This document shows, piece by piece, positions 38,940-42,789 of a DNA stretch of 64,000 nt. The translations under genes and the position numbers were made by a program. Position 1 is the first letter of the stretch. Each line of letters begins with the position of its first letter. The stretch is from Fervidicoccus fontis Kam940 (lineage in GTDB: Archaea; Thermoproteota; Thermoprotei_A; Sulfolobales; Fervidicoccaceae), in contig NC_017461.1 of assembly GCF_000258425.1 (NCBI RefSeq), positions 1,146,949 through 1,210,948 of the forward strand. The letters are read 5' to 3'. The notes beneath the pieces are model-generated. The model made no database searches. It worked only from the letters and a program-made list of their open reading frames with translations, and was not told the DNA's origin.

Positions 38940-40622
38940 TTAAGGTTTTTTATCGGAAAATTTTGATAATAGGAATAAAATTTCCCCGCATAATTTCCTT
39001 GGATGAGAATTTTTCAGAAGTAACTTTTTCATTTTTTCTTCTAGAACAGAATCGTTGACTTTTAAACCTTCGATTCCTTCACACTTAACTCCTTTAACGA
39101 TCAATTCTCCGTCGTATGTTAATCCATAATACCTGTTAGGAGCAGCACTTTTAATTGGGTTCAGTGCTTTAGGAAAAATTATCCATTTGTATCTTTGCTC
39201 TTCTTTTATTTTCAGTCCTGTACCTTTTTCTATTTCGCCAAGTAATCTATTTGCATCCATATCGTTTATCAATTCTTTAGAGAATTTTTGAAGAAATAGA
39301 CTGTCTACTATATAATGAAGAACATTAAAACCGTTTTTCAGAGAGATTTCTATTGCTTTGTTCATAACTTTTTTAGAGATAAATATGACCAGTTCATAAG
39401 CACCAACATTTCCAAATCTTGCATTTCTGTAACCGAGGTATCCAAAGCTAGCTACCATTATCCATTTTACCGCTTTTTCCATCGTCTTGCTAAATGGTCC
39501 GTTTATTTCTTTTATTTTACTTCTAAGATCAATTAGTTTTTTCAGTGTGGATGAAACTAAACCATCGAAGTCTACACATACTTCGTGCGGTGCATCATTT
39601 AAGTGAAGTCTGTTTCTACAATTCGGTCTATCAATAGTTTCGGGAGAGATGTTAAATTTAGAGATTATTGATGGATAGAGACTTGAAAAATCGATCTGTA
39701 AGACATTTTCATATACTCCAGCTTCCGGAATGCCTATTAGTCCACCTGAGTCATACGTCAGTAACTCATCGACATTTCTCCAACCCTCATTGTATATCCT
39801 TATATTAGGAACCACCATTTTTCTTCTGTACGCCTCTATGGCTTCTATTTCTGTTAAAAGTTTCCCTATACTACTTGAAGCTACTTCATTAAGGTTAGTA
39901 AAGGAAATCCTTCCTATAATCATCCATCCAGGTATGCTGTCAATAGGATTTCTGACGTCAATTATTAAAATCTTGTTGCGCATATTCTTAGCATTGTCGA
40001 TGATCATTTCACTTAGGTTTTTTGGAAGAATGATTATGTTGCACTCATTTAGGTATCCTACAAGATCGCGCTCATCATGGAGCTCCATCTCAATAAAGTT
40101 TGTTGCTCTATTTCTACTACAGCTTAGTGCATAAAAATTCAGTTTAACCCTTTTTTCATCGTATGTTATGCTTGCAATTTTTAGCTCTGGAAATGAGAGA
40201 CGCGGAGACCAAGGATCGCTGACTTCACTATCCCATTCAAAAAGAACGACGCCATTTTCTATTAATGAGATGGTTTTAGAAGAAGGCTGAACATTGACTC
40301 TTTCTAAATATCCTTCAAGCTCCCAGCGCTTCAGAAGAGGATTTAGAGCTAAATAGTACTCCAGCTCTACTCTAATTATATCCGCTTTTTTATCATACCA
40401 TGGCGGTAATGACCAGCTTTCTACCTTAATGTCAGAGACTTTCGGATCTCTTTTGATATTGTCTATAACTTCATCTGTGCTTAGCTTTTTAGCGATAAGA
40501 TACATTGGATATTTAGTGTAGACTTCTTTAACCCTTTCTTCTCCATATTCATTTATCTGTACCAACTCAATTTGATTTGGGAAAAAATTAGCTTTTATGT
40601 TCCACCATCTGCTCAATTTCAT
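38940..40622 (-). CDS. polB2: PolB2-type B-family DNA polymerase with altered active site
   Basis: A 560-residue B-family polymerase, shorter than replicative PolB (about 750-900). Motif A is intact (DFSSLYPSII, 311-320), motif B is KWIMVASFGYLGY (about 386-398), and motif C is HYIVDS (436-441) where YxDTDS is expected, so the first catalytic Asp is gone. The 3'-5' exonuclease domain has no recognisable DxE motif. This matches archaeal PolB2, which is linked to damage response and translesion work in Sulfolobus. Its start overlaps the small upstream gene by 35 bp. Confidence 0.88.
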   Translation of the reverse strand: MKLSRWWNIKANFFPNQIELVQINEYGEERVKEVYTKYPMYLIAKKLSTDEVIDNIKRDPKVSDIKVESWSLPPWYDKKADIIRVELEYYLALNPLLKRWELEGYLERVNVQPSSKTISLIENGVVLFEWDSEVSDPWSPRLSFPELKIASITYDEKRVKLNFYALSCSRNRATNFIEMELHDERDLVGYLNECNIIILPKNLSEMIIDNAKNMRNKILIIDVRNPIDSIPGWMIIGRISFTNLNEVASSSIGKLLTEIEAIEAYRRKMVVPNIRIYNEGWRNVDELLTYDSGGLIGIPEAGVYENVLQIDFSSLYPSIISKFNISPETIDRPNCRNRLHLNDAPHEVCVDFDGLVSSTLKKLIDLRSKIKEINGPFSKTMEKAVKWIMVASFGYLGYRNARFGNVGAYELVIFISKKVMNKAIEISLKNGFNVLHYIVDSLFLQKFSKELINDMDANRLLGEIEKGTGLKIKEEQRYKWIIFPKALNPIKSAAPNRYYGLTYDGELIVKGVKCEGIEGLKVNDSVLEEKMKKLLLKNSHPRKLCGEILFLLSKFSDKKP

Positions 40623-40842
40623 CTATCCTCTTCAAAGCCTTTATTAATCCTGAAAGCAGTATAGCATAGGGATAGTCGTAGGGTGGAACAGCCTTAAATA
40701 CAGGCGCGAGCTCCTTATAGCTTGCAATAATTTCATTCATAACTTTTCTGATTTCCGGGTCATGTATATATTCCATCATCTTCTCCAGTCGCTTAATTTC
40801 GTAATCTACAACCATTCTAACAGAGGGAGTTGTCCTTCCCAT
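40588..40842 (-). CDS. Small helical protein of the PolB2 operon
   Basis: An 84-residue, mostly helical protein (KRLEKMMEYIHDPEIRKVM and ALKRIDEIEQMVEH regions) with no known catalytic motif. It overlaps the RadA-like gene by 37 bp at its start and polB2 by 35 bp at its end. Such deep overlaps on both sides imply translational coupling and a shared complex. A small protein between a RadA paralog and PolB2 is, as I recall, also seen in Sulfolobus. A possible role is a bridge or adaptor. Confidence 0.7.
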   Translation of the reverse strand: MGRTTPSVRMVVDYEIKRLEKMMEYIHDPEIRKVMNEIIASYKELAPVFKAVPPYDYPYAILLSGLIKALKRIDEIEQMVEHKS

Positions 40843-41522
40843 TTATCTCTCACCGATAGAATTTCATTTATACTTCTTACTAGGCTTTTTTCAGGCCTTG
40901 AAGGGTGTTTAATTAGCGTAGCTCTATAACTCCTTCTATCAACAATTTCTAATCTAACAATCATGTATGCGCTATGGTGGCTTAGATTTCCCCCTTCAGG
41001 AAGGAATCTGCCAAACTTACTTACTCTGTTGAATAAAAGAACTCTCTTGCCTTCAGCTGAAAGTGCCCTCATCATTGCAATTAGCCTAGCAAGTTTCCAA
41101 TAATTTCTTGGCTCTGAAGGAGAATGAATATACGGATCGATGATTGCAATGTTTTCTGCATCAATATTGCTTGCGCTCTTAAGCATATTTATGGCATCTT
41201 CTAATCTAAATGCCCTTGAAACTAGCATGTCGTTTGTATTGCAACCAAAGCTTCTTGCATACATTCTCAGCATATAGAAGTCGTAATTTATGAGCTCATT
41301 CTGCATAATGCCTACGGCTGTTCCATCTATGCAGTGAAAGTTTGCTATTACCTTATAAGAGGTTTGAAGAACAAGCTGAAAATCTCCGTAAAACTCTGCA
41401 ATGATGCCTTTCGGAATACATCCTACTAATTCATCAATACCTTCTATTCCGCTCTTTTCGCATTGCTTCACATCATATGAACGACTATCCTTGGAAGAAA
41501 CCTGAATACTAAAAGACTTCAT
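40806..41522 (-). CDS. RadA/RecA paralog lacking a functional Walker A
   Basis: A 238-residue protein aligned by eye to RadA: GIEGIDELVGCIPKGIIAEFYGDF corresponds to the RadA region entering the P-loop (written here in two parts, GIEGIDELVGC and IPKGIIAEFYGDF). Where RadA has GxxxxGKT, this has GDFQLVLQT, so ATP binding is probably lost. The second half keeps VLLFNRVSKFGRF and GGNLSHHSAYMIVRLE, matching the L2 and late strands. ATG at 41522 follows GTGATATGATA. It is first in an operon with a small helical gene and polB2. Confidence 0.8.
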   Translation of the reverse strand: MKSFSIQVSSKDSRSYDVKQCEKSGIEGIDELVGCIPKGIIAEFYGDFQLVLQTSYKVIANFHCIDGTAVGIMQNELINYDFYMLRMYARSFGCNTNDMLVSRAFRLEDAINMLKSASNIDAENIAIIDPYIHSPSEPRNYWKLARLIAMMRALSAEGKRVLLFNRVSKFGRFLPEGGNLSHHSAYMIVRLEIVDRRSYRATLIKHPSRPEKSLVRSINEILSVRDKWEGQLPLLEWL

Positions 41523-41693
41523 TATCATATCACTTTGTTCAATATGTTTTTGTTTCCTTTGAGATCCTTCTATTTCGATAATATAGAAAAGAACATATGT
41601 ACCAGGAATAGGTAGAGAGTGAAAACCGAAAGTAATCTATCTTATAAAAATGATAAGATGTTTTAAAGATAGGAGCCCTTTTTCCCTTTTATG

Positions 41694-41915
41694 TGGTGGG
41701 CCCGGGGGGATTTGAACCCCCGACCTTCGGGTCTCTCCCTATTTCACATTTCCAGTCACATTTCATCGCCTTCGGGGCTCATCAGACCCGTAAGCATTGT
41801 GCATATTACGGAGTCTGCCAGCCGGAGAGCCAGCAACGTTCGCTGACTGGAGCTTCAGCCTTTGGGTCATTTTCTACCCAAAGACCGCTGCTCTGCCTGG
41901 CTGAGCTACGGGCCC
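41694..41915 (-). tRNA. Interrupted tRNA gene, probably tRNA-Ile(GAT), with intron(s)
   Basis: On the minus strand, acceptor strand GGGCCCG (from 41915), TA, D-arm GCTC...GAGC, T-arm GGGGG-TTCAAAT-CCCCC, CGGGCCC, then A and an encoded CCA (41694-41696). The T-arm and GGGCCCG acceptor with A73 fit tRNA-Ile. About 140 nt of extra sequence lies between the D-arm and T-arm. Within it, CGGGT-CTGATG followed later by ACCCG would give a GAT anticodon stem-loop, implying two introns. I could not place the splice sites with confidence. Inner hairpins include CTTTGGGT/ACCCAAAG and CCGTAA/TTACGG. Confidence 0.75.
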
Positions 41916-42042
41916 TCCAACGTTCATCTATTTATTTATTAAAAATACTGCCTATTTTTATTTTTTCTTTTTGTTTTGAGATCAATTTTTATAAGAGAAT
42001 GCTTTATAATATTATTTGAAAGTTTCTTAATCGGTGAATGGA

Positions 42043-42789
42043 TTGGCAAGCGTAAAAATTGTCTACCCAGATGCAAAAATATTCAAAAGTTTATTTGAAT
42101 CGATGTCAAAGCTTATCGATGAAATTAGGCTTGAAATAAATGAAAATGGATTGGAAATAAGAGCAATAGATTCAGCAAACGTCGCTCTCATGAGCGTTTC
42201 ATTTCCTAAGGAATCATTTTCAGAGTTCATAATCAACGAGAAAAAAAGCGTCGGTCTAAATCTGAGCACGTTAGTCAAAATGATGAAGAGAGTGAGAAAG
42301 GAAGATAGATTCGAAATTGAAATTAATGAAGATGAAATCTCATTAAGGCTCATCGGGACAACGAAAAGAGAGTTTAAGGTAAATAACTTAGAGGTTGCAA
42401 TCCCTGAAATTCCTGAAGGAGGGATAGAATTTTCCACTAGGCTGAAAGTAATAAGTGAGACACTGAAGCATGCCCTAAAGGATTTGGAACTTGTAGGTAA
42501 TCAAGCAATTTTTGAATTTGATGGTAATGAAAAACTAATGATATCTTCAGTAGGCGAGGGAAAATATGAAATGCAATTGACCAAAAGTAGCGGGTCAATT
42601 ATAGAAGTAATTTCCGGTAATCCCGCAAAAAGCACATATAGTGTGGAGTACCTCTTGAATTTACTATCATTAACGAAAATCGCCGACACAATTTCAATAT
42701 CCTTTTCCTCGCAGATGCCCATAAAGCTTGAGATAGATCTTCCGACTGGAGGAAATATATCCTATCTTTTAGCTCCTGCAATTGTTTGA
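42043..42789 (+). CDS. pcn: DNA polymerase sliding clamp PCNA
   Basis: A clamp subunit of about 248 residues. PDAKIFKSLFESMSKLIDE and the ENGLEIRAIDSANVALMS strand are typical of domain 1, VNNLEVAIPEIPE is the interdomain connector, and IKLEIDLPTGGNISYLLAPAI is the C-terminal domain (shown in part). TTG at 42043, five bases after GGTGA, is favoured over GTG at 42034. Crenarchaea often have several PCNA paralogs forming heterotrimers; only one is in this window. Confidence 0.94.
   Translation: MASVKIVYPDAKIFKSLFESMSKLIDEIRLEINENGLEIRAIDSANVALMSVSFPKESFSEFIINEKKSVGLNLSTLVKMMKRVRKEDRFEIEINEDEISLRLIGTTKREFKVNNLEVAIPEIPEGGIEFSTRLKVISETLKHALKDLELVGNQAIFEFDGNEKLMISSVGEGKYEMQLTKSSGSIIEVISGNPAKSTYSVEYLLNLLSLTKIADTISISFSSQMPIKLEIDLPTGGNISYLLAPAIV

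Follow-up and report, generated by a model that had tools for sequence, protein, structure and literature searches.

Conserved two-frame overlap of iRadA and PPB2 in the PolB2 cassette of Fervidicoccus fontis Kam940

Three adjacent genes on the minus strand of the Fervidicoccus fontis Kam940 genome run into one another in the order iRadA, PPB2, PolB2, and the locus raises two questions: what the three products do together, and whether overlaps of this depth are under selection or a by-product. The window, the whole stretch of DNA analyzed, comprises 64,000 nucleotides, and window coordinates are used below unless a contig is given. Genome-wide statements refer to pattern searches of the single contig of 1,319,206 bases. 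The nearest named relative, identified in a PolB2-based scan of named genomes, was Fervidicoccus sp. ARK-14. The features of the locus are as follows:

40806-41522, minus strand: iRadA, a protein of RadA/Rad51 fold without Walker A (238 aa), assigned from TIGR02237, RecA and fold matches.
41361-41387, minus strand: degenerate P-loop GDFQLVLQT in iRadA, aligned to GEFGTGKT of the genome's own RadA.
40849-40854, minus strand: Shine-Dalgarno-like GGTGAG inside iRadA, 6 nt 5′ of the PPB2 start.
40809-40832, minus strand: candidate PCNA-binding motif QLPLLEWL at the iRadA C-terminus, assigned by pattern and resembling the tail of the genome's own PolB3.
40806-40842, minus strand: iRadA/PPB2 overlap (37 bp), read as WEGQLPLLEWL-stop in the iRadA frame and as MGRTTPSVRMVV in the PPB2 frame.
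40588-40842, minus strand: PPB2 (arCOG07300-type), a small helical protein with an MGRT arm (84 aa; M1-G2-R3-T4 invariant).
40588-40622, minus strand: overlap between the PPB2 end and the PolB2 start (35 bp; 35 nt also in two relatives).
38940-40622, minus strand: PolB2, with decayed exonuclease domain and shortened C-terminus (560 aa; PF00136, NF004416).
39300-39317, minus strand: PolB2 motif C, HYIVDS (canonical YGDTDS), aligned to the genome's own PolB1 and PolB3.
41625-41634, minus strand: extended DDRE-like site TACTTTCGGT upstream of the operon, recurring in relatives.

The original prediction of three same-strand genes overlapping by 35-37 bp was confirmed by the open reading frame calls (37 bp and 35 bp), and no evidence was seen within the cassette of separate promoters, which it had named as speaking against a joint function. 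For iRadA a second ATG lies at 41528, and the start at 41522 was favored because GTGAT sits 6 nt before it. Invariance of M1-G2-R3-T4 (15 of 15 aligned sequences) makes 40842 a secure start for PPB2; for the same reason a start at M10, which would shorten the overlap to approximately 10 nt, was dropped. The PolB2 start is supported by MKLS/MKLG, conserved in two relatives that both have the same 35-bp overlap. This second overlap is 35 nt in loci L033 and L034 and 29 nt in L035; elsewhere its length is variable, often 1-4 nt or none. iRadA was not found in viral contigs, and no defense-system model matched.

iRadA was identified from weak profile matches (TIGR02237 RadB, E 6e-5; RecA, 3e-4) and from an AF2 model (pLDDT 88.8), the best PDB fold matches of which were RAD51/RadA (E 1e-14, TM 0.72). 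Orthologs are present in 82 of the 229 genomes of the class. Once its intein is taken out, the genome's own active RadA has EFFGEFGTGKT in the Walker A region, where the window iRadA has EFYGDFQLVLQT, confirming the proposed RadA paralog with GDFQLVLQT in place of GxxxxGKT. The P-loop is absent from all 13 aligned iRadA orthologs; the intact Walker A in close relatives that had been named as grounds for rejecting the reading was thus not found. Separately, the active RadA gene (L180, G000:C1:715708-717141) carries an intein of ~171 aa inside its Walker A motif (GEFGTGK / T).

PolB2 matched PF00136 (1.9e-11) and NF004416 (3e-58), and its AF2 model (pLDDT 86.4) gave the KOD, Tgo and 9N family-B polymerases as top fold matches. 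At motif C the genome's own PolB1 and PolB3 read YGDTDS and the window PolB2 reads HYIVDS; aligned PolB2 proteins read [IVL][IV]DS. None of the ExoI-III residues align in the window PolB2 when it is compared with PolB1 and PolB3, so that the predicted polymerase lacking both a recognizable exonuclease motif and one catalytic Asp of motif C was borne out by alignment. Such a PolB2, with lost motif C Asp and missing exonuclease, has been described in Fervidicoccales (PMC7390963), and the lost Asp is typical of PolB2 (PMC8764526, PMC11791011). The C-terminus is shorter in the window protein and its Fervidicoccaceae relatives than in other families. The D(K/R) motif before motif A is absent from the window PolB2, which reads YDSGG; this site is DN or DS in three Fervidicoccaceae relatives and DK in L036. 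D(K/R) was modeled as contacting MGRT and is conserved, without being stated as required (PMC11791011). Because the gene trio and the other motifs are present, its loss is read as within-family variation.

The substituted motif C, the absent exonuclease motifs and the shortened C-terminus could also mean that PolB2 is catalytically dead here and serves a structural purpose or regulates replication, the kind of role initially put forward for these proteins (inactivation was suggested in PMC4104785). This is improbable, since motif A and the remaining motif C Asp are intact, the Sulfolobus islandicus Dpo2 is a robust polymerase with the same kind of motif C substitution (PMC8764526, PMC11791011), and induced mutagenesis depends on Dpo2 (PMC7390963). 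The enzyme is active and also extends mismatches (PMC8764526, PMC11791011). Of the "doubly degenerate" pair originally described, the degenerate motifs stand, but inactivity of the polymerase does not follow from them, given the robust S. islandicus enzyme with the same substitution.

PolB2, arCOG07300 and a dead RadA were linked to one another in 2014 (PMC4104785). A 2025 study modeled a PolB2-PPB2(3)-iRadA mutasome, compared it to Pol V, and described the MGRT arm, a Rad51-like contact and iRadA clamp motifs (PMC11791011). The idea of a damage mutasome was therefore right in kind and not new, and the statement that a dpo2 operon of this type was already known in Sulfolobus agrees with these publications of the trio. 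The window cassette shares with the modeled family the trio, gene order, dead ATPase, motif C substitution, decayed exonuclease, MGRT arm and, by pattern, a clamp motif at the iRadA end; it differs in the 37-nt two-frame overlap with both docking motifs, in DS for D(K/R) and in the shorter PolB2 C-terminus. Part of the family has a clamp motif in iRadA or PolB2. The Sulfolobus Dpo2 operon comprises the same three families and is damage-induced. The likeness to Pol V (UmuC-UmuD′2-RecA) lies in a polymerase, an oligomeric small subunit with N-terminal arm and a Rad51/RecA-fold partner (PMC11791011); Pol V differs in its Y-family polymerase and active RecA ATPase, and the subunits are non-homologous except for the RecA fold.

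The cassette had originally been compared with the bacterial ImuA-ImuB-DnaE2 mutasome. The shared logic (a RecA-fold protein without ATPase motif, an adaptor, a specialized polymerase and damage control) holds, but the published analog is Pol V, and direct homology is highly improbable: the polymerase belongs to family B rather than C, PPB2 is helical and 84 aa long, unlike the Y-family-like ImuB, and neither ImuA nor ImuB models matched. The profile search of the RadA-like protein against RadA and ImuA, which had been suggested as a check, returned RadB, RecA and Rad51 and no ImuA model. The likeness to ImuA-ImuB-DnaE2 is functional only.

We consider it very likely that the cassette encodes a PolB2 mutasome in which PolB2, a PPB2 trimer and iRadA act as one translesion (mismatch-extension) polymerase that is tethered to PCNA and induced by damage. 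Complex formation, PCNA contact, lesion bypass and damage induction are proposed here by analogy, the function being transferred from Sulfolobus. By homology, iRadA would have lost ATP binding and serve as a scaffold of Rad51 fold, capping a Rad51-like oligomerization motif on PolB2. Of the PPB2 N-terminal arms (MGRT), one would be wedged between PolB2 and iRadA near DNA, and the iRadA C-terminal tail QLPLLEWL would tether the complex to PCNA. Translation of PPB2 is predicted to start inside the end of iRadA from the internal Shine-Dalgarno-like site, coupling the subunits, and this internal start could raise PPB2 output for a 3:1:1 complex.

The deep overlaps, which had been singled out as worth attention, proved the most interesting part of the locus. 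Seventy-one distinct cassettes that contain iRadA together with PPB2 were collected. In 31 of them iRadA runs into PPB2, by 37 nt (21 loci), 40 nt (2 loci) or 49 nt (8 loci), and always in one register: PPB2 M1 G2 R3 T4 x5 P6 S7 x8 R9 M10 A11 V12 is read against iRadA W x G Q x x L x E W L stop. In the 40- and 49-nt overlaps iRadA is merely extended beyond EWL. Among the 31 loci, at least 13 genera from five families of the order are represented, and three loci come from outside the order. A QxxLxx[WFY] tail ends iRadA in 25 of these 31 loci (6 lack it) versus 9 of the 40 other cassettes, and a Shine-Dalgarno-like word precedes PPB2 in 26/31 overlap loci versus 15/37 others. PCNA motifs in iRadA have been reported, as has the MGRT arm of PPB2, which matched no curated family above cut-off (PMC11791011 for both reports). 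The tail of the genome's own PolB3, QKSLFDYL, resembles QLPLLEWL; the candidate clamp tail ends in WL and not in the canonical FF, which counts against reading it as a PCNA tail. The word "overlap" does not occur in the main texts of PMC11791011 and PMC4104785, to which the search was confined. What this locus adds to them is a 37-letter stretch that, from its sequence, would encode in two frames a tail expected to grip the sliding clamp and an arm expected to hold the complex together.

The overlap could be an inherited translational-coupling device only, with the clamp-like iRadA tail arising as a by-product of the codons for the MGRT arm. Coupling would fit a 3:1:1 complex and the Shine-Dalgarno-like words before PPB2, all overlap loci are related, and the first Trp of the tail is always forced by NTG-G and is uninformative. 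Coupling, however, requires no specific motif. In a codon null test, PPB2 codons were redrawn synonymously using the codon use of the same loci; the tail W..Q..L.[EDN][WFY] was expected in 0.49 of the 31 loci and observed in 25, counts that are not independent and carry no formal probabilities, as the loci are related and independent pairs too few (overlap versus tail, codon choice). Under the same test and with the same reading, codon choice was biased at positions that keep both motifs: T4 was ACA in 23/27 (8.4 expected), S7 was TCT in 20/21 (3.6 expected) and R9 was AGA in 28/31 (8.6 expected). The overlap state requires approximately six changes on the tree.

Cassettes in which the two readings are separated also bear on this alternative. 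In L086 and L087 the PPB2 start at the overlap position is dead (ATG GGG TGA) and PPB2 lies 300 nt downstream, and the iRadA tail WGEQRCLSEWL/F is kept; these cassettes are apparently a relic of the overlap. Chloroflexi iRadA proteins mostly end in the clamp motif QPxLF directly before a separate, non-overlapping PPB2. Sulfolobaceae keep MGRT and not the Gln-Trp tail; the gene order there is PPB2-PolB2-iRadA, which accounts for the absence of both overlap and tail. From these three comparisons, either motif can be retained when its partner is absent; the overlap accommodates the two together. A coupling device alone is accordingly unlikely. We rather favor the reading of the ~37-nt overlap as a long-lived, selected overprint in which two frames and a start signal specify a clamp-docking tail of one subunit and an assembly arm of the next, such that a single mutation can alter both. 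On this account, one register was held across the genera and families given above, some lineages resolved it by gene separation keeping one or both motifs, and the operon belongs to a minimal Orc1-2 damage regulon outside Sulfolobaceae. To our knowledge, it is unusual in cellular genomes for a conserved deep overlap to encode two interaction motifs of the same complex. The PolB2 mutasome has so far come from models only, and because evolution kept both readings, the overprint offers a natural, testable handle on two predicted contacts, the PCNA tail and the MGRT arm.

Transcriptional control was considered from the upstream region. A single ANTTTC hexamer had been noted there, and its position (ACTTTC, 41628-41633, minus strand) was confirmed; with 0.99 matches to bare ANTTTC expected by chance in that 170-bp region, the hexamer alone is no evidence. 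Of the four family members with the operon, three (L033, L035 and L036) conserve the extended form TACTTTCGRT at a similar position upstream of iRadA. The genome contains three copies of TACTTTCGGT, all in sense orientation and a short distance ahead of a gene: the operon, an Orc1/Cdc6 gene and the gene of an uncharacterized 456-aa protein. The placements before the PolB2 operon and before the Orc1-2 ortholog both recur in relatives. Remaining genome matches to the looser pattern ATASTTTCGR lie inside open reading frames. The strict motif was found upstream of the operon in 12/31 overlap loci (reversed control, 0/31), and most overlap loci of one family (f6) yielded no DDRE-like site.

The genome has two Orc1/Cdc6 genes, and the one preceded by TACTTTCGGT is orthologous to the Sulfolobaceae paralog that is neither Cdc6-1 nor Cdc6-3, by elimination Orc1-2. 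Its promoter contains ATA[CG]TTTCG in 8/8 genomes checked from the family to which the window belongs, and three Sulfolobaceae have AAAGTTTCGG there; an extended motif of similar form occurs in the operon and orc1-2 promoters of some Sulfolobaceae. In S. islandicus, footprinting has placed Orc1-2 on ANTTTC in the promoter of its own gene (PMC9738581). The window genome thus shares with the Orc1-2/DDRE (ANTTTC) damage regulon a motif before the orc1-2 ortholog and the polymerase operon, and differs in lying outside Sulfolobaceae, in the longer form of the motif and in a third target gene. By analogy, the Orc1-2 ortholog probably acts at TACTTTCGGT to raise operon transcription after DNA damage. 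The extended motif at three genes, two of its placements recurring in relatives, goes beyond the publications examined; it predicts a small damage regulon in a lineage for which no damage response was found described, and this regulon gains one further gene, that of the 456-aa protein.

TACTTTCGGT lies 37 nt upstream of the start of the gene for the 456-aa protein (L188, G000:C1:1251954-1253321). The protein matched nothing in Pfam or PADLOC and nothing significantly in NCBIfam, and homologs were seen in only three other genomes, all of the same family; TACTTTCGAT lies just upstream of the homologs in G003 and G006 and is absent in G004.

A PCNA gene (42034-42789, plus strand) is the divergent neighbor of the cassette, followed by a Xer-type integrase with zinc ribbon. 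PCNA was dropped as a cassette member, as it is adjacent in none of the fetched relatives. At 41694-41915 (minus strand) lies a tRNA-like gene (GGGCCCG...CGGGCCCACCA) that was missed by ARAGORN and contains one or more long inserts, probably introns; the Rfam search of the upstream region returned a weak, sub-threshold tmRNA match overlapping the tRNA-like end.
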